Assembly: GCA_003526065.1 (NCBI GenBank)
Contig: DQBD01000135.1
Location: forward strand, 1 to 5,975
Reading direction: 5' to 3'
Origin: Gammaproteobacteria bacterium
Lineage (GTDB): Bacteria; Pseudomonadota; Gammaproteobacteria; Immundisolibacterales; Immundisolibacteraceae
DNA: 5,975 nt
Position numbers and translations under genes: made by a program. Positions 1-5,975 of this stretch are shown in pieces. The notes below the pieces were generated by a model. It made no database searches, was not told where the DNA came from, and saw only the letters and a program-made list of their open reading frames with translations. How positions within the stretch are numbered: the first letter of the stretch is position 1; every line of letters begins with the position of its first letter.

Positions 1-443
1 ACGCGGTGGTCGGCATGGGCACCCTCACCCGGCCGCAGGACCTGTCCGCCGCGCGCGACGCCGGCGCGGTGTTCGGCGTGAGCCCCGGGCTCAGTCCGGG
101 CCTTCTGGACGCGGCCGAGGACGGCGGGCTGCCGCTGCTACCGGGCACCATGACGCCATCGGACGTGATGACCGTGCGCGCCGCCGGCCTTCGTGTCTGC
201 AAGCTGTTTCCGGCGGCGGTGGCCGGCGGCCTCGACATGCTGAAGGCCCTGCACGGCCCCTTCCCGGATCAGGTGTTCTGCCCCACCGGCGGCGTCGATG
301 TGGCCACCGCGCCCGCTTACCTGGCGCAGCCCAACGTCGCCTGTGTCGGCGGCTCCTGGGTGGCGCCCAAGGCCCTGGTGCAGGCCGGCGACTGGGCGGC
401 CATCACCGCCCTGGCCGCGGCCGCGCAGCGGTTGCGCGGCTGA
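1..443 (+). CDS. eda: KDPG aldolase (2-dehydro-3-deoxy-phosphogluconate aldolase), 5' end missing
   Basis: Class I aldolase that splits 2-keto-3-deoxy-6-phosphogluconate into pyruvate and glyceraldehyde 3-phosphate, the last step of the Entner-Doudoroff pathway in the cytoplasm. The reading frame is already open at position 3, so the gene begins outside the window; the GTG at 6 is an internal valine codon. The visible 146 residues contain the family's VGMGT turn, SPGL, LLPGTMTPSD, the CKLFPA motif with the Schiff-base lysine codon at 201-203, CPTGGV (phosphate binding) and VGGSW. Compared with E. coli Eda (213 residues, lysine 133), about 67 N-terminal residues are missing, including the glutamate general base. 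The end of the protein is normal. It converges with the UbiD-family gene, leaving only 12 bases between the two stop codons. A related KDPGal aldolase acting on galactonate is possible, since the two cannot be told apart here. Confidence 0.93.
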   Translation, partial: AVVGMGTLTRPQDLSAARDAGAVFGVSPGLSPGLLDAAEDGGLPLLPGTMTPSDVMTVRAAGLRVCKLFPAAVAGGLDMLKALHGPFPDQVFCPTGGVDVATAPAYLAQPNVACVGGSWVAPKALVQAGDWAAITALAAAAQRLRG

Positions 444-455
444 ACCGCTGCCGTC

Positions 456-2066
456 TCAGCTCAGCTTGCGCCGCTGCCCGGCCTGTTTTTCACCGGTGAG
501 GTAGTAGTCCCCCCGCACCGCCAGGTCGGCTTCCTCGGTCTCCTCGGCCGACCAGTGGCCCAGGTTGTAGCCATACCAGGGCGTGCGCAGCTTCAGTTCC
601 GGCAACCCCAGCTCCTGCCACAGCTGGACGGCGTCTTCCATGAACGCCTGTCGCGGCAGGGAAACCGGTGGGTACGGCCAGTCGCGCGTGGCGTCGATCA
701 GCAACCCGGACATGCGCGGCTTCTCGCCGGTCAGGCCACGGTTGGCGCCCGGCGGCGCGATGGACGGGTCCAGCGGCATCAACGGGATGTCCACCACACG
801 CACGTCGCGATGCGGCTGCATGGCGTAGGACAGCGCCCAGTAGATGGCGCCCGGGTCGTGAATGTCGACGTCCTCGTCGACCACCACGGCAACCTTGCCG
901 ACGAATTTCTTGGCCAGGTGATCGAGGACGCGCTGACCGTCGTCGTCGTTCTGACGGCGGATGCGCACCAGGCACACGCCGAACGCCCCCGACGCTTCCG
1001 GGTAGTGCACCTCCAGCACGTTGTCGAAGCCGCCGTCCTTGAGGTAGTCGAAACAGGCCGCCTCCCAGCCGATACCGCGGATCTTGGACGACTCGCTGGG
1101 CGGAAACTGTGAAAGAAACGCCTGGTAGATCGGCTGCTTGCGCATGGTGATTGCCGTGACTTCCATGAACCAGGAGTAGTCACGCGCCGCCATGTAGCCG
1201 GGAAACTCGCCGAACGGCCCCTCCATTTCCTGCAGATCGGTCGGCACGAAGCCCTCGACCACGATCTGCGCCTGGGCCGGTACCAGCAGGTCGTGCGACA
1301 CGCACCGCACCAGCTCCAGCGCGTGTCCGGCCAGGCCGCCGGCCACGTCGTACTCGCACACGTCGTTGGGCAGGCGTGTGACGGCGGTGTAGGACACCGC
1401 CGGGGGCACGCCAATGACGATGGCGGCCGGCATCCTGGCGTGCCCGCGCTCGCGCCACAGCTCGATGTGCCGGCGCATGCCCCAGCCCGGCGAGGCCGGA
1501 TACACACCGATTCGCTGCTCGGACTTGACCATGCCGCGGTAGTTGCCGACGTTGTGCAGGCCGGTGTCCGGGTCCTTGCTGACCCAGTGCGAGGCGGTGG
1601 TGTACGGCGCGTTGTCGAACCCGGGGGTCGAAATGGGAATCGGCAGGCGCGACAGGCAGCGTTCGCGCAGGTCATCGCCGCGCAGGATCTGCTCGTGAAC
1701 CGGGCCGCTGTCGACCAGCTTCGGCGCGATCGGATTGGCCTGCGCGTGCTCCCAGCGGCGCGGAATCTCCTCCACCGTGCACTGCAGCCCCAGGGCGTAG
1801 ATGTCGGACGAGCCGGCCATGGCGCACAGCACCAGCGGCATGTCATACGGGCGGCCCTTGGCGTCGGTGATGTTCTCGAACAGCCAGGCCTTGCGGTCCT
1901 TCTCTTCCAGGCCGCGGAACTGCAGGCGCACCAGCGGATGCATCTGCGTGTCCTTGTCGATTGGCCGGCTGACGCGTTGCAGCTTGCCGGCCTGCTCCAG
2001 CGCGGCGATGTATTCGTTCAGGTCGCGGTAGTAGCCGGACGGCAGCTGTGCGGCGACAGTGGCCAT
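456..2066 (-). CDS. UbiD-family prenylated-FMN-dependent (de)carboxylase
   Basis: A 536-residue cytoplasmic enzyme of the UbiD superfamily, which reversibly decarboxylates aromatic or alpha,beta-unsaturated acids using prenylated FMN. Key family residues are all recognisable: N172/R177 in HNVGNYRG (cofactor contact and the catalytic Arg corresponding to R173 of Fdc1), H200 in RRHIELW and E238 in CEYDVAGG (metal and cofactor ligands), and the E282-x4-E287 pair in EGPFGEFPGY, matching E277 and E282 of Fdc1. A DEDVDIHD segment lies at 397-404. The C-terminus is an extension with a WYGYNLGHW motif near 497-505. Length is normal to slightly long for the family. The start is set by GAGGAG at 2074-2079, seven bases before the ATG. 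No UbiX-type prenyltransferase lies in the window, so cofactor must come from elsewhere. The clade does not look like classical ubiquinone UbiD; a catabolic aromatic-acid or aryl-CoA substrate is my inference, and the actual substrate is unknown. Confidence 0.92.
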   Translation of the reverse strand: MATVAAQLPSGYYRDLNEYIAALEQAGKLQRVSRPIDKDTQMHPLVRLQFRGLEEKDRKAWLFENITDAKGRPYDMPLVLCAMAGSSDIYALGLQCTVEEIPRRWEHAQANPIAPKLVDSGPVHEQILRGDDLRERCLSRLPIPISTPGFDNAPYTTASHWVSKDPDTGLHNVGNYRGMVKSEQRIGVYPASPGWGMRRHIELWRERGHARMPAAIVIGVPPAVSYTAVTRLPNDVCEYDVAGGLAGHALELVRCVSHDLLVPAQAQIVVEGFVPTDLQEMEGPFGEFPGYMAARDYSWFMEVTAITMRKQPIYQAFLSQFPPSESSKIRGIGWEAACFDYLKDGGFDNVLEVHYPEASGAFGVCLVRIRRQNDDDGQRVLDHLAKKFVGKVAVVVDEDVDIHDPGAIYWALSYAMQPHRDVRVVDIPLMPLDPSIAPPGANRGLTGEKPRMSGLLIDATRDWPYPPVSLPRQAFMEDAVQLWQELGLPELKLRTPWYGYNLGHWSAEETEEADLAVRGDYYLTGEKQAGQRRKLS

Positions 2067-2073
2067 GGCGTTT

Positions 2074-2079
2074 CTCCTC
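2074..2079 (-). promoter_or_regulatory. Ribosome binding site of the UbiD-family gene
   Basis: On the minus strand GAGGAG precedes the ATG at 2066 by seven bases, a strong Shine-Dalgarno match that fixes the start. Confidence 0.8.
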
Positions 2080-2100
2080 GGGCTTCACGGCGTGCCCGGC

Positions 2101-2130
2101 AGCGTAGCCGCCGCCCGACCGTACGGTCAA
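2101..2130 (-). promoter_or_regulatory. Candidate promoter with overlapping palindromic operator for the UbiD-family gene
   Basis: On the minus strand TTGACC (2130-2125) could serve as a -35 box, followed after 18 bases by TACGCT (2106-2101) as a weak -10. A perfect 12-base palindrome, GACCGTACGGTC (2117-2128), overlaps the -35 box and spacer. Palindromes of this GACCG-N2-CGGTC form are typical of TetR-family operators such as the NemR box, and binding here would block RNA polymerase. The element overlaps the stop codon of the upstream photolyase fragment. The palindrome is seen directly; the promoter and the regulator family are inferences, and no regulator gene is in the window. Confidence 0.45.
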
Positions 2131-2888
2131 TCAGGTGTCTGCTGCCGGCTTGCCGCAGCGCGCACCTGCGCGTAGGCGGACAGTGCCGCCTGACGGCCGG
2201 CCGCCAGGTCCACGATTGGCCACGGGTAGGTTTCACCCAGCCGCACACCCGCCGCCTGGCGCTCCGACTCCGGCGCCTGCCACGGTGCGTGCACGTGGCG
2301 CTTGGGCAGGCGTGCCAGTTCCGGCACCCAGCGACGCACGTAGTCCCCTTCGGGGTCGAACTTCCTGCCCTGAACGACCGGATTGAAAACGCGGAAGTAC
2401 GGCGCGGCATCCGCGCCGCAGCCGGCCACCCACTGCCAGTTCTGGCTGTTGCTGGCGAGGTCCGCGTCCAGCAGCGTGTCCCAGAACCAGCGCGCGCCGG
2501 CCTGCCAGGGCTGCCGCAGGTGCTTGGTCAGGAACGAGGCAGTGATCATGCGCACGCGGTTGTGCATGAAGCCGGTGTGCCACAGTTCGCGCATGCCCGC
2601 GTCCACCAGCGGTATTCCGGTGCGCCCGCGCTGCCAGGCGCGCAGGTGCTCGGGGTCGTCCTGCCAGGGAAATGCCGCGAAGCGGCCGTCCAGCGGCTCT
2701 TGCGGCAACGTCGGGTAATGCCACAGCAGGTGCGCGCTGAACTCGCGCCAGCCGAGTTCCCGCCGCAGCGCCGCGACCTGGCTGTCCAGTGCGGGTGCCT
2801 GCGCAGCTGCCGCGTCCAGCGCCGCCAGCACCTGCCGTGTGGCGTCAGAGACGAGCCAGTCCGGCTGGCCGAGATCAGTCCGACTCAT
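2127..2888 (-). CDS. phr: DNA photolyase C-terminal (FAD) domain fused in frame to a foreign N-terminus
   Basis: From about residue 18 on, this 253-residue frame matches the helical FAD-binding domain of class I CPD photolyases, which repair UV-induced pyrimidine dimers with blue light. Visible features are RELGWREF (E44 and W47, equivalents of E. coli E274 and W277 that contact the dimer), [30 protein letters not shown] (N110), NSQNWQW and RVFNP. The electron-transfer tryptophans are all present (W75, W128, W151 for E. coli W306, W359, W382). N147, the equivalent of N378, favours a photolyase over a cryptochrome. The whole N-terminal antenna domain, roughly 200 residues or more, is absent. 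In its place stand about 17 residues that look like the start of a CCA-adding enzyme. The ATG at 2888 (another at 2891) overlaps the upstream stop and belongs to that other gene. The product is probably an assembly chimera rather than a real protein. The stop lies 60 bases before the UbiD-family start, so co-transcription in the source genome is possible. Confidence 0.85.
2811..2840. other. Probable junction between two unrelated genomes
   Basis: Read on the minus strand this stretch encodes [10 protein letters not shown]. Sequence to its right fits an alphaproteobacterial operon, while sequence to its left fits a photolyase that is missing its first half. The segment itself would suit either family at this point (photolyases have SPRQ-V at the same place), so it is the likely shared sequence through which the two were joined. 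Base composition is visibly more GC-rich on the left. The exact break cannot be placed within the segment. Confidence 0.65.
2811..2888 (-). pseudogene. N-terminal remnant of a CCA-adding tRNA nucleotidyltransferase gene
   Basis: The first 27 codons from ATG 2888 read [17 protein letters not shown] and then [10 protein letters not shown]. Alphaproteobacterial CCA-adding enzymes (PcnB/Cca family, which complete the 3' end of tRNAs) typically begin with a W-[IL]-x(2-3)-AT-x-x-V-x-x-x-L pattern, followed by a GG-x-A-x-FVGG-x-VR nucleotidyltransferase motif. Here the pattern stops just before that motif and photolyase sequence follows. The place fits: in alphaproteobacteria a NudL-type Nudix gene and a DUF6111 gene are often found beside this enzyme, and the start overlaps the DUF6111 stop by 14 bases as in a coupled operon. 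Only about 25 residues support the call, so the identification rests on pattern and context recalled from memory. Confidence 0.5.
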
Positions 2889-3294
2889 CATCGCTCGCTG
2901 TGGGAACTTCCTCAGCCTCGATCTCAATCTGCGGCGCGCCCTCGGGCGGGCGCGGCTCAGGGTCGGAAACACCTTCGGCGGCATTGCCCGGGGTTTCGGT
3001 CTTGGGCGCGCCGACATGGGTCAGGTCGCGCTCGCACGGGACGGTGCGCTGGGGAATGAGCACGCCATTCTCATAGCGCGGCGGCTCGATGCACAGGTCG
3101 CGTTCCTTGGTTTCCTGCGAGGCCATGAAGGCCCAGCCGGCCAGCGTCAGCAGGGCGCCGGCCCCGAACAGGAGATTGATCGGCCAGGTCTTGCGCCCGT
3201 CGGCTTCGGCATCGGTCACCAGCAGGCGGTAGATTGCATAGGCCAGAAATGGCAGCAAAAACAGGATAAGCTGGATGACAACAGTGCGCGCCAA
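2875..3294 (-). CDS. DUF6111-like small membrane protein
   Basis: A 139-residue protein with two predicted membrane helices (about residues 5-26, rich in [11 protein letters not shown], and 39-58) joined by a short charged loop. [12 protein letters not shown] segment follows at 71-81. This layout matches the small DUF6111 proteins of alphaproteobacteria, whose function is unknown. Unlike the family as I recall it, there is a long proline- and glutamate-rich acidic tail (about residues 90-139) ending in ASDDESD. I chose the TTG start at 3294 because GAGGAG (3304-3309) sits nine bases upstream and the family normally begins right before the first helix. The longer alternative from ATG 3345 would overlap the Nudix gene by 38 bases and lacks a good ribosome binding site. 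The Nudix stop codon lies within the ribosome binding region and this gene's own stop overlaps the next start, so translation is probably coupled. It is likely an inner-membrane protein. Confidence 0.75.
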
Positions 3295-3307
3295 TTTGGA
3301 CGTCTCC

Positions 3308-3955
3308 TCAACTTCGGCGGCTCTGTATGTCCGCGTCTCCGCCATAAAGTTCCAGATATAGTGCGCGGATAATACCCGCAGTCACCCCCCAGATGCGAAA
3401 GCCGCCATGCGGCATCTGGTAGTAATGGCGTGTCTGGCCACGCCAGACGCCCGACTGGCGGTCATGGTTTTCCGGATTGAACAGGAAGTCGAGCGGGGTC
3501 TCGAAGACGGCAGCAACCTCGGTTTCGCATGGCGCGGCCTGGAAATCCCGCGGCAGGACGCCGAGGACAGGCACGATGCGAAAGCCCGTACCGGTGATAT
3601 AGGGCGCGCCGCGCGCGATGATATCGACAGAGGCCGGATCGACGCCAACTTCCTCATGCGCCTCGCGCAGGGCCGCCTCGACCTCATCGTCGTCGGAGGG
3701 ATCGACCTTGCCGCCGGGAAACGCGACCTGGCCGGGATGGGCATCCATGGTGTCAGGGCGCTGGGTCAGCAGCGCGGTCGGGCCCTCGGCGCGTGGAATC
3801 AGGCCGACCAGGACAGCCGCCGAGCGAATCGCCTGGATCTGCGCATCTGTCAGAAACTCCAGGTCGCCGCCTTCCGGCAGGCGCGCGGGGCCGGTCACAG
3901 GATCCAGGCGGGTTCGCGCACGCGCGATCAGGTCATCCAGGGTGGTAAAGCTCAT
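3308..3955 (-). CDS. NudL-type Nudix hydrolase (putative CoA pyrophosphatase)
   Basis: A 215-residue cytoplasmic Nudix hydrolase. Residues 62-82 carry the UPF0035/NudL signature (LLTQR, then H73-x-GQVAFPGGK) that separates CoA and acyl-CoA pyrophosphatases from other Nudix enzymes. The Nudix box follows, with REAHEEVGV at 97-105 supplying the metal-binding glutamates. The spacing from the glycine to the RE pair is one residue longer than the canonical box, as in E. coli NudL. The expected reaction is cleavage of CoA to 3',5'-ADP and 4'-phosphopantetheine; activity on this substrate is inferred. Length is typical. It lies 75 bases downstream of tig in the same direction, and its stop sits in the ribosome binding site of the DUF6111 gene. 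The start ATG has no clear Shine-Dalgarno and is preceded by a perfect hairpin that includes its first two bases, so translation may be controlled there. Confidence 0.9.
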   Translation of the reverse strand: MSFTTLDDLIARARTRLDPVTGPARLPEGGDLEFLTDAQIQAIRSAAVLVGLIPRAEGPTALLTQRPDTMDAHPGQVAFPGGKVDPSDDDEVEAALREAHEEVGVDPASVDIIARGAPYITGTGFRIVPVLGVLPRDFQAAPCETEVAAVFETPLDFLFNPENHDRQSGVWRGQTRHYYQMPHGGFRIWGVTAGIIRALYLELYGGDADIQSRRS

Positions 3956-3986
3956 CGCGCGCCATGTAGGGGGGATGGCGCGCGAT
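3954..3986 (-). promoter_or_regulatory. Perfect 12-bp hairpin at the start codon of the Nudix gene
   Basis: ATCGCGCGCCAT (3954-3965) and ATGGCGCGCGAT (3975-3986) are exact inverted copies with a nine-base loop, GTAGGGGGG on the plus strand. In the minus-strand transcript the stem takes in the first two bases of the Nudix ATG and covers the region where a ribosome binding site should be. There is no T-run after it, so it is not a standard intrinsic terminator for tig. It could limit translation of the Nudix gene or shield the 3' end of a tig transcript. Structure is seen; role is inferred. Confidence 0.6.
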
Positions 3987-4030
3987 GTCGATTGCTTGAA
4001 TGTAAGTGGCGCGGAGCGCCGGACCGGTCG

Positions 4031-5380
4031 CTAGAGCGAATCCAGCCCTTCATCCTCGGCGAACAGCTCGTCCTTGGAGACGGTGGTTTCGTTCACCGTG
4101 GCGATCGCCAGGATGTGGTCGACGACCTTGTCTTCATAGATCGGCGCGCGCAGCTGGGCCATGGCGTCGGGGTTCTTCTGGAAGAACTCCACCACCTGGC
4201 GTTCCTGGCCCGGGAATTTGCGGGCCTCGGCGATCAGCGCCTGCTGGACTTCCTGTTCGGAGATCGTCACTTCCGCCTTGCGGCCGATTTCGGCGAGCAC
4301 CAGGCCGAGGCGCACGCGGCGCGCGGCAATGCGCTGATACTCTTCTTTCAGTTCGTCTTCGGGCTTGTTTGCTTCTTCCTCGTCGAGGCGGCCTGCTTCC
4401 TTTTCCTGCTCGAACTGGGCCCAGATCTGGTTGAACTCCTGGTTCACCATGCCGGCGGGCAGTTCGAAATCGTGCGCCTTGTCGAGGGCGTCCAGCAGCT
4501 TGCGCTTGGCCTTGGCGCGCGAGGCACCGTCATATTCGCCGCGGATCTGCTGGGTCATCAGGTCCTTGAGCTGTTCCAGGCTTTCCAGGCCGAGGCCTGT
4601 GGCGAATTCCTCGTCGACTTCCGGCGTCTGGGGCGCGCGCACCTCTTCCACCTTCACCTCGAACACGGCTTCCTTGCCGGCGAGATTGGGGGCCGAATAG
4701 TCTTCCGGGAAGGTGACGTTGAGGTCTTTTTCCTCACCGGCCTTCACGCCGACAAGCTGTTCCTCGAAGCCCGGGATGAAACGGCCCTGGCCGATCACCA
4801 CCGTGGCGCCCTCGGCCGAGCCGCCTTCGAAAGCCTCGCCGTCGATCTTGCCGACAAAGTCGATCACGACCGCATCACCGTCGCGGGCCTTGGCGGTCTT
4901 GCCGCGCGGCTCGTACTTCATGTTCTGCTCGGCGAGCTTGCCCAGCGCTTCCTCGATTTCCTCGTCCGGGATCTCGGCAACGGGGCGCTCGATTTCCAGC
5001 GTGGCCGGGTCGACCGGCTCGAATTCCGGCATCACGTCGAGATGCATTTCATAGGCGAGGTCGGCCTTGCCCTCGATGACATCGTCAATCTCGCCTTCCA
5101 GGTGGATGTGCGGCTGGCTGGCCGGGCGCACCTGGGCGTCCTCGATCGCCTTTTCGTTGGTTTCCTTGACCAGGTTGTCGATCATCTCGCCCATCAGCGA
5201 CTTGCCGAACATCTTCTTGATGTGGGACGGCGGCACCTTGCCGGGGCGGAACCCCTTCAGGCGCATCTGCGGCTGGATTTCCTTGATCCGGGCATCGAGC
5301 TTCTGGGAAAGCTCGTTCTGGGTGACGCGGATCTGATAGGAACGGCTGAGGCCTTCGACCTTGGTCTCGGTAACTTCCAT
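4031..5380 (-). CDS. tig: Trigger factor, ribosome-bound chaperone and peptidyl-prolyl isomerase
   Basis: A 449-residue chaperone that binds at the ribosomal exit tunnel and shields new chains. The N-terminal ribosome-binding domain (about 1-115) has the signature GFRPGKVP at 43-50, which docks on ribosomal protein L23. The FKBP-type prolyl isomerase domain (about 155-245) shows DGDAVVIDFVGKIDGE, VVIGQGRFIPGFEEQLVG and VTFPEDY. The helical C-terminal domain includes MVNQEFNQIWAQFEQ (311-325) and ends in an acidic tail. Length fits the family (432 in E. coli, commonly longer in alphaproteobacteria). The ATG at 5380 matches the conserved N-terminus, though its ribosome binding site is weak (AGAGAG very close, AAGGA about 12 bases away). 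In many bacteria clpP and clpX follow tig; here a Nudix gene follows instead. The leader carries palindromes described separately. Confidence 0.97.
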   Translation of the reverse strand: MEVTETKVEGLSRSYQIRVTQNELSQKLDARIKEIQPQMRLKGFRPGKVPPSHIKKMFGKSLMGEMIDNLVKETNEKAIEDAQVRPASQPHIHLEGEIDDVIEGKADLAYEMHLDVMPEFEPVDPATLEIERPVAEIPDEEIEEALGKLAEQNMKYEPRGKTAKARDGDAVVIDFVGKIDGEAFEGGSAEGATVVIGQGRFIPGFEEQLVGVKAGEEKDLNVTFPEDYSAPNLAGKEAVFEVKVEEVRAPQTPEVDEEFATGLGLESLEQLKDLMTQQIRGEYDGASRAKAKRKLLDALDKAHDFELPAGMVNQEFNQIWAQFEQEKEAGRLDEEEANKPEDELKEEYQRIAARRVRLGLVLAEIGRKAEVTISEQEVQQALIAEARKFPGQERQVVEFFQKNPDAMAQLRAPIYEDKVVDHILAIATVNETTVSKDELFAEDEGLDSL

Positions 5381-5418
5381 GACTCTCTTTAATCCTTGCT
5401 GAGGCGCAGCAGTTTGGG

Positions 5419-5432
5419 TGTTGCGCGCAACA
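5419..5432. promoter_or_regulatory. 14-base perfect palindrome in the tig leader
   Basis: TGTTGCGCGCAACA is self-complementary over its full length and lies about 40 bases upstream of the tig ATG. It could be a dimeric repressor site. I do not recognise the factor. Confidence 0.4.
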
Positions 5433-5468
5433 GTCTTTCCATGCGGCGGGGAACAAAGCGCGGTCTAT

Positions 5469-5508
5469 GTCACAGCCATTTCGGCATGTCCATTCCCCCC
5501 GCTGTGAC
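5469..5508. promoter_or_regulatory. Spaced inverted repeat upstream of tig
   Basis: GTCACAGC (5469-5476) and GCTGTGAC (5501-5508) are exact inverted copies 24 bases apart. The half-sites resemble the TGTGA element of CRP-type sites but face the wrong way and are too far apart for a normal CRP box. This may be a looped operator or a large RNA stem; the function is unknown. Confidence 0.35.
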
Positions 5509-5609
5509 GGGGGCCGAATCTGTCAGATAATCAATGGCGGTTAGGGGTTTTGGGGCTGGAGACTGGTCGAGAAGATACAGGATACCAGAAACTCCCTCAC
5601 TGCCGCCCT

Positions 5610-5688
5610 CCCCCGCGAAAGCGGGGGTCCATGGACAGGCGTGCCATGCTGGAGGAATGGTCCATGAATCCCCGCTTTCGCGGGGATT
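5610..5688. repeat. Head-to-head pair of REP-like palindromic units
   Basis: Unit A (5610-5636) is a 7-bp stem with a GAAA loop (5610-5627), followed by GTCCATGGAC. Unit B (5660-5688) is the same element inverted: its minus-strand core CCCCGCGAAAGCGGGG is identical to A, and the following ten bases match in eight. Unit B folds as a 9-bp stem (5667-5675 with 5680-5688). The two units face each other across about 23 bases, the arrangement of BIME-type elements. Palindromes with this CCCGC-GAAA-GCGGG core recur between genes in several alphaproteobacteria, as I recall. Such units are usually mobilised by RAYT transposases; none is in the window. Confidence 0.7.
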
Positions 5689-5802
5689 AAGCGGCTCTGT
5701 GTGGCAAGCAGCCCTGAGCGCGACCCATGTGAGGGCGTTAGCCCGATACGGGATCAGACAAGGATTCCAATCGCAGCCAAGACAAAGCAGTGAGTCTATT
5801 CT

Positions 5803-5818
5803 TGGGGCTGCCGCCCCA
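5803..5818. repeat. Small GC-rich hairpin
   Basis: TGGGGC (5803-5808) pairs with GCCCCA (5813-5818) around a TGCC loop. It is one of several short dyads in this gap; no T-run follows on either strand. Confidence 0.4.
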
Positions 5819-5828
5819 TTCTCCGCCT

Positions 5829-5854
5829 AAAATCGATCCCCCGGATCGAATTTT
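5829..5854. terminator. Possible bidirectional intrinsic terminator
   Basis: CGATCC (5834-5839) pairs with GGATCG (5843-5848) around CCC. The stem continues through one bulged base into AAAA (5829-5832) paired with TTTT (5851-5854). A T-run therefore ends the stem on both strands. On the minus strand it would lie about 105 bases past the end of the tRNA and could end that transcript; no plus-strand gene precedes it. The stem is short, so the call is tentative. Confidence 0.45.
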
Positions 5855-5855
5855 C

Positions 5856-5870
5856 CCGCGACAAGCGCGG
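5856..5870. repeat. Hairpin resembling a diverged REP unit
   Basis: CCGCG (5856-5860) pairs with CGCGG (5866-5870) around ACAAG. The preceding TC and following AT make it look like a degenerate version of the CCCGC...GCGGG units at 5610-5688. It lies directly beside the possible terminator. Confidence 0.35.
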
Positions 5871-5919
5871 ATCGGCTGCGAATGGTGCAGGTGAGAGGTG
5901 AAACCTCGAACCGGAACCC

Positions 5920-5948
5920 GCACATTGGGTTGGCGGGCGGCAATGTGC
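5920..5948. repeat. 8-bp inverted repeat just downstream of the tRNA
   Basis: GCACATTG (5920-5927) and CAATGTGC (5941-5948) are exact inverted copies with a 13-base G-rich loop. On the minus strand this stem starts ten bases after the CCA of the tRNA, so it may shape the 3' trailer of the precursor. It lacks a T-run after the stem, which argues against a standard terminator. Confidence 0.45.
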
Positions 5949-5957
5949 AAATAAAGA

Positions 5958-5975
5958 TGGTGCCGGCTGAGGGAC
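5958..5975 (-). tRNA. 3' end of a tRNA gene (Thr or Leu likely), cut by the window edge
   Basis: On the minus strand the last 18 bases read GT, CCCTC (3' side of the T-stem), AGCCGGC (3' acceptor strand), A (discriminator) and an encoded CCA. The arrangement exactly matches the end of a tRNA and implies a 5' acceptor strand of GCCGGCT. Alphaproteobacterial tRNAs starting with GCCG include threonine and some leucine species; the anticodon lies outside the window, so the isotype is open. The tRNA points toward tig, and tRNA genes beside tig are common in this class. Confidence 0.7.

Follow-up and report, generated by a model that had tools for sequence, protein, structure and literature searches.

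The window, i.e., the whole stretch of 5,975 nucleotides analyzed here, reads from an aldolase gene (eda) and a UbiD-family decarboxylase gene, through a frame that opens as a CCA-adding enzyme and goes on as a DNA photolyase, to genes for a DUF6111-like protein, a Nudix hydrolase and trigger factor (tig), followed by a dispersed repeat. The coordinates are collected in Table 1, where left-hand and right-hand refer to the two parents discussed below.

Table 1. Features of the window, with strand and the evidence for each.
Feature	Positions	Strand	Evidence
KDPG/KHG aldolase (eda), cut by window start, left-hand parent	3..443	+	PF01081; 79-82% DNA identity to G838, G731, G619
UbiD-family decarboxylase, left-hand parent	456..2066	-	PF01977; 86-87% DNA identity to G838, G731, G619
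DNA photolyase C-terminal 234 residues, FAD-binding domain, antenna domain missing, left-hand parent	2127..2831	-	PF03441 E 1.5e-89; 233/234 identical to P0001 residues 255-488
Junction interval, about GGTGCTGGCGGCGCTGGA (VLAAL + GA), compatible with both parents	2815..2832	-	right parent identical to 2815, mismatch at 2814; left protein agrees from V at 2831
First 25-26 codons of CCA-adding enzyme, right-hand (Hyphomonadaceae) parent	2815..2891	-	identical to L130 3073-3149, continuing there as intact 404-aa CCA enzyme
DUF6111-like protein, right-hand parent	2875..3345	-	PF19606 E 4e-4, under the cut-off; protein 100% identical in G411
Nudix hydrolase (CoA pyrophosphatase type), right-hand parent	3308..3955	-	PF00293; NCBIfam NF007980 above its cut-off; within G411 match
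Trigger factor (tig), right-hand parent	4031..5380	-	TIGR00115 above its cut-off; within G411 match
Intergenic dispersed repeat, right-hand parent	5594..5963	.	many partial copies in G411 and G415

According to the list of open reading frames of the window, the minus-strand frame from 3017 to 2127 is open throughout. Its start codon lies at 2891, from which it encodes the beginning of a CCA-adding enzyme and then, from the valine at 2831, a photolyase. The first 25 residues are the same as those that open the CCA-adding enzyme of the genome G411, in agreement with an earlier note on this DNA, which had described an opening that loses its identity after about 25 residues. In Pfam profile searches the photolyase part was recognized by FAD_binding_7 (PF03441), and neither the antenna domain PF00875 nor the polymerase head domain PF01743 was found in the window's frame. 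Compared with the CCA tRNA nucleotidyltransferases (PF01743), the frame thus shares the 25 opening residues of the G411 enzyme but lacks the catalytic head domain. Compared with the DNA photolyase/cryptochrome family (PF03441 with PF00875), it has the FAD-binding domain of the full-length protein P0001 but not the first 254 residues of that protein, antenna domain included; we attribute their absence to the contig leaving the parent gene at this point.

The open frame would also be expected of a natural, functional protein family in which a CCA-enzyme start is fused to a photolyase. A family of this kind can practically be dismissed, because the CCA part comprises only about 25 residues without the head domain, the photolyase part has no antenna domain, and no second member was found among the 120 listed photolyases (the best 120 of 8000) or among the 361 proteins collected. 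The junction peptide itself was met only in the window's own piece among these 361 proteins, 120 of which are the listed photolyases, and the junction 36-mer had no exact match in viral_contigs.

The right-hand part of the window has a nearly exact counterpart. Positions 2812-5963 align with the start of the G411 contig C20 (102,212 bases) with 2 mismatches in 3152 bases, one of which, at window position 2814, sits at the join itself; beyond 2814 the two sequences can no longer be aligned. Past this departure point G411 reads on as a complete CCA-adding enzyme of 404 residues, which is the only match to that enzyme found in G411. The intact enzyme is also present in a protein cluster (2 member sequences, 8 contigs, the longest of 120,217 bases) whose representative, P0242, is 100% identical to the G411 enzyme, the PF01743 head domain being listed for full-length P0242. 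Another protein, P0252, carries the same 17-residue CCA start; we considered it as a second chimera and rejected it, as it aligns as an ordinary CCA enzyme.

The neighboring genes give the same assignment. The DUF6111-like protein, matched by protein search in 97 of the 101 genomes of the family of G404, is 100% identical in G411 over all 156 residues, the next-best of these genomes reaching 81%. The DUF6111-like match adjoins the Nudix gene in all ten relatives examined at 68-72% Nudix identity (L096-L105), and a match to the CCA start follows just after it in nine of them with E 0.3 or better; in the tenth, L098, the match found in this position has an E of 5.8. The operon of tig, Nudix and DUF6111 proposed in the earlier note is matched by G411 almost base for base; the DUF6111 assignment scores 21.1 bits, below the Pfam curated cut-off of 24.1. 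We label the right side Hyphomonadaceae because P0260, named Hyphomonadaceae bacterium, is encoded on the 4907-base contig of G415, and P0289 and P0315, named Henriciella, are encoded on G350 and G270 loci; G411 and G415 were both drawn as members of G404's family. At its far end the G411 contig C20 begins at the base matching window position 5963, i.e., that assembly ends in the dispersed repeat, and the window runs 12 bases past this point.

The left-hand part points to another class. The UbiD protein matches 3 of the 369 genomes from the class of G013, with E up to 1e-190 and a best identity of 88%; this class was reached through a locus titled Gammaproteobacteria bacterium, and as it was the one searched, we call the left side gammaproteobacterial. 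The left DNA is matched by 7 of the 8 genomes in the order of G619, an order that may, we presume, be Immundisolibacterales; besides the relatives in Table 1, three other genomes of this order have UbiD at 70-71% and one further genome has an eda match at 74%. When window positions 1-2126 were compared with G411, a 279-base match at 66% and a 44-base match at 82% were obtained, both within eda, and no UbiD match (40 of 165 candidates scored). The same query gave one 39-base match in G415 (40 of 79 candidates scored) and none in G404 (40 of 47 candidates scored). The comparison of taxa that the earlier note had suggested therefore separates the two sides: the right matches G411, and the UbiD and eda genes of the left match a gammaproteobacterial order.

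The base composition changes together with the relatives, as the earlier note had observed. The GC content is 0.696 in 1-2814 vs 0.629 in 2815-5975, and for comparison 94 kb of G731 gave 0.684 and 329 kb of G411 gave 0.630. A third-order Markov score was calculated for 500-base segments over 1-5500, with G731 as the left-hand reference, a relative of the left parent and not the parent itself. All five segments of 1-2500 are G731-like (-0.019 to -0.039; average of G731's own 47 segments, -0.020), and all five of 3001-5500 are G411-like (0.010 to 0.025; average of G411's own 165 segments, 0.023), while the segment straddling the join is weakly G731-like, at -0.011.

The best relative of the photolyase half, among the best 120 of 8000 scored matches, is P0001, a full-length protein of 488 residues encoded on an 8673-base contig and listed with the PF00875 antenna domain. 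From VLAALD to the end the window is identical to P0001 in 233 of 234 residues, starting at its residue 255, and upstream of this point P0001 reads HLHFGEISARR where the window reads LVSDATRQ. The description of this frame in the earlier note as a photolyase deprived of its antenna domain is therefore accurate. The photolyase of G411 is a different, full-length protein, 48% identical to P0001. A search with the whole window matched a photolyase piece of 312-354 bases at 70-74% in each of G411, G415 and G404 (40 candidates scored in each), and in G411 this piece lies inside its own whole photolyase. An origin of the window from a phage was rejected, the best phage photolyase being only 49% identical (10 records), as was an origin from a plasmid, the window having no megablast ("near") match in plasmids.

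The present analysis shows that each side of the window matches a different organism, and that both parents continue intact past the join, the right one in its DNA and the left one at the level of protein, in P0001. The CCA-adding enzyme and photolyase genes are thus both found whole, in what appear to be different bacterial classes. We conclude, with a probability of about 0.96, that the window is a chimeric metagenome contig from two unrelated bacteria, and that the CCA/photolyase fusion is an artefact and not a new gene. Bases 2815-5975, with tig, the Nudix and DUF6111-like genes and the CCA start, would come from a Hyphomonadaceae alphaproteobacterium very close to G411, and bases 1-2814, with eda, UbiD and the photolyase, from a gammaproteobacterium related to G619, G731 and G838. 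The two intact parent genes support the mis-join through a short common sequence put forward in the earlier note; the act of joining itself is what we infer from them.

Since the right parent can be traced down to 2815 and the left protein from 2831 onward, the switch falls in about 2815-2832. Here VLAAL, about 17-18 bases, is all that the parents have in common, the left side being deduced from protein; the G411 enzyme reads RQVLAALEAV at the join. A stretch that suits both parents does exist, as claimed in the earlier note, but it is shorter than stated there, amounting to VLAAL and two bases. Of 10 genomes searched, two contain the 18-base coding-strand word: G411 has a single copy, located at the CCA gene, and G619 has two. 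The reversed control word is absent from all 10; such a word as the 18-base one is therefore present in genomes of both groups. Both genes read the shared word in one and the same phase, which keeps the frame open across the join.

The length of this word bears on how the genomes were connected. The assembler, or a chimeric library molecule, may have crossed from one to the other via the identical GC-rich word at VLAAL, of about 17-18 bases or more. For an assembler run at a k of at least 21, a word of 17-18 bases is short. In the four nearest photolyases, P0001-P0004, VLAAL or the equivalent segment is always preceded by R, and this restricts the word to 17-18 bases. Should the strain's photolyase have RQ in place of the RR of P0001, the shared word would be about 23 bases, a weak possibility; at the place before VLAAL, RQ occurs in 27 and RR in 8 of the 62 photolyases with HFGEI[SG] among the 120 listed. 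A chimeric molecule arising in library preparation or whole-genome amplification, and not in the assembler, would have the same anatomy of short homology and two intact parents, and for it the short word is less awkward than for an assembler with long k. Its sequence picture is the same as that of an assembler error, and we regard it as a less probable variant, counted within the artefact reading.

A review on metagenome assembly (PMC7299287) names assembly graphs in which shared k-mers connect species, mostly related ones, as a source of chimeric contigs. The window resembles inter-genome contigs in that its relatives, composition and gene integrity change together at a single position, and in that two genomes are joined through a short shared sequence, but its shared word, at about 17-18 bases by the protein evidence, is short. 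The case is a clean one because a public genome contains one of the parents almost letter for letter, and there the gene at the join is intact. Contigs of this kind lead to a spurious gene fusion, a spurious between-class transfer and a wrong bin, and the finding matters only for quality control.

We have also considered a real illegitimate recombination, by which gammaproteobacterial eda, UbiD and half a photolyase would have entered the start of the CCA-adding gene of a cell close to G411. Horizontal transfer between these classes occurs in general, and the frame is open across the join. Moreover, two tRNA genes were found in about 330 kb of G411, and both have the CCA end encoded, so that a cell could survive losing the CCA enzyme; the argument that this loss must be lethal was dropped on the strength of these two genes, which come from part of G411. 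If the recombination via the 17-18 base word had really taken place, tRNA genes with an encoded CCA might keep the strain alive. However, the flank is that of G411 as far as the join itself, which would require a very recent event. The recombination would also destroy the single CCA-adding gene that was found and bring in half a photolyase, although G411 has a complete one of its own. In addition, the intact CCA protein cluster occurs on 8 contigs, and the chimera was not seen again among the 361 proteins or in viral_contigs. Such a recombination is accordingly considered very improbable, and the chimeric contig remains our preferred reading.

The left half of this chimeric contig deserves a further comment. 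No P0001-like photolyase was found in the 8 genomes of the left-hand order, while this query did find matches in all 9 of the other genomes searched, so the place of the photolyase in that order rests on its neighbors and composition. Unlike in the window, UbiD is flanked by other genes in G731 and G838; at L182 and L183 it lies, as we take it, between a short-chain dehydrogenase-like/dehydratase-like pair and a CtpA-like protease, and not beside eda or photolyase. For these reasons a second mis-join between UbiD and the photolyase was considered. We think it unlikely, since the stretch that precedes UbiD, conserved in three relatives, extends past the photolyase stop codon, and since P0001-P0004 end in PD, alone among the 120 listed photolyases, an ending that the window, L182 and L184 would also read at that place and L183 would not. 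Judged from the sequence, the last codons of the photolyase within the conserved stretch and the shared PD ending would favor photolyase and UbiD being true neighbors.

A perfect 12-base palindrome, GACCGTACGGTC, lies before the UbiD gene at window positions 2117-2128, and the photolyase stop codon overlaps the palindrome region (2117-2132). The motif has 1 exact match in the window, with 0.26 expected by chance when up to 2 mismatches are allowed, and at least one match with up to 2 mismatches appeared in 47 of 200 shuffles. The sequence ACCGTACGGTCAAT is identical before UbiD in the three relatives and, with the palindrome, looks like a candidate operator.
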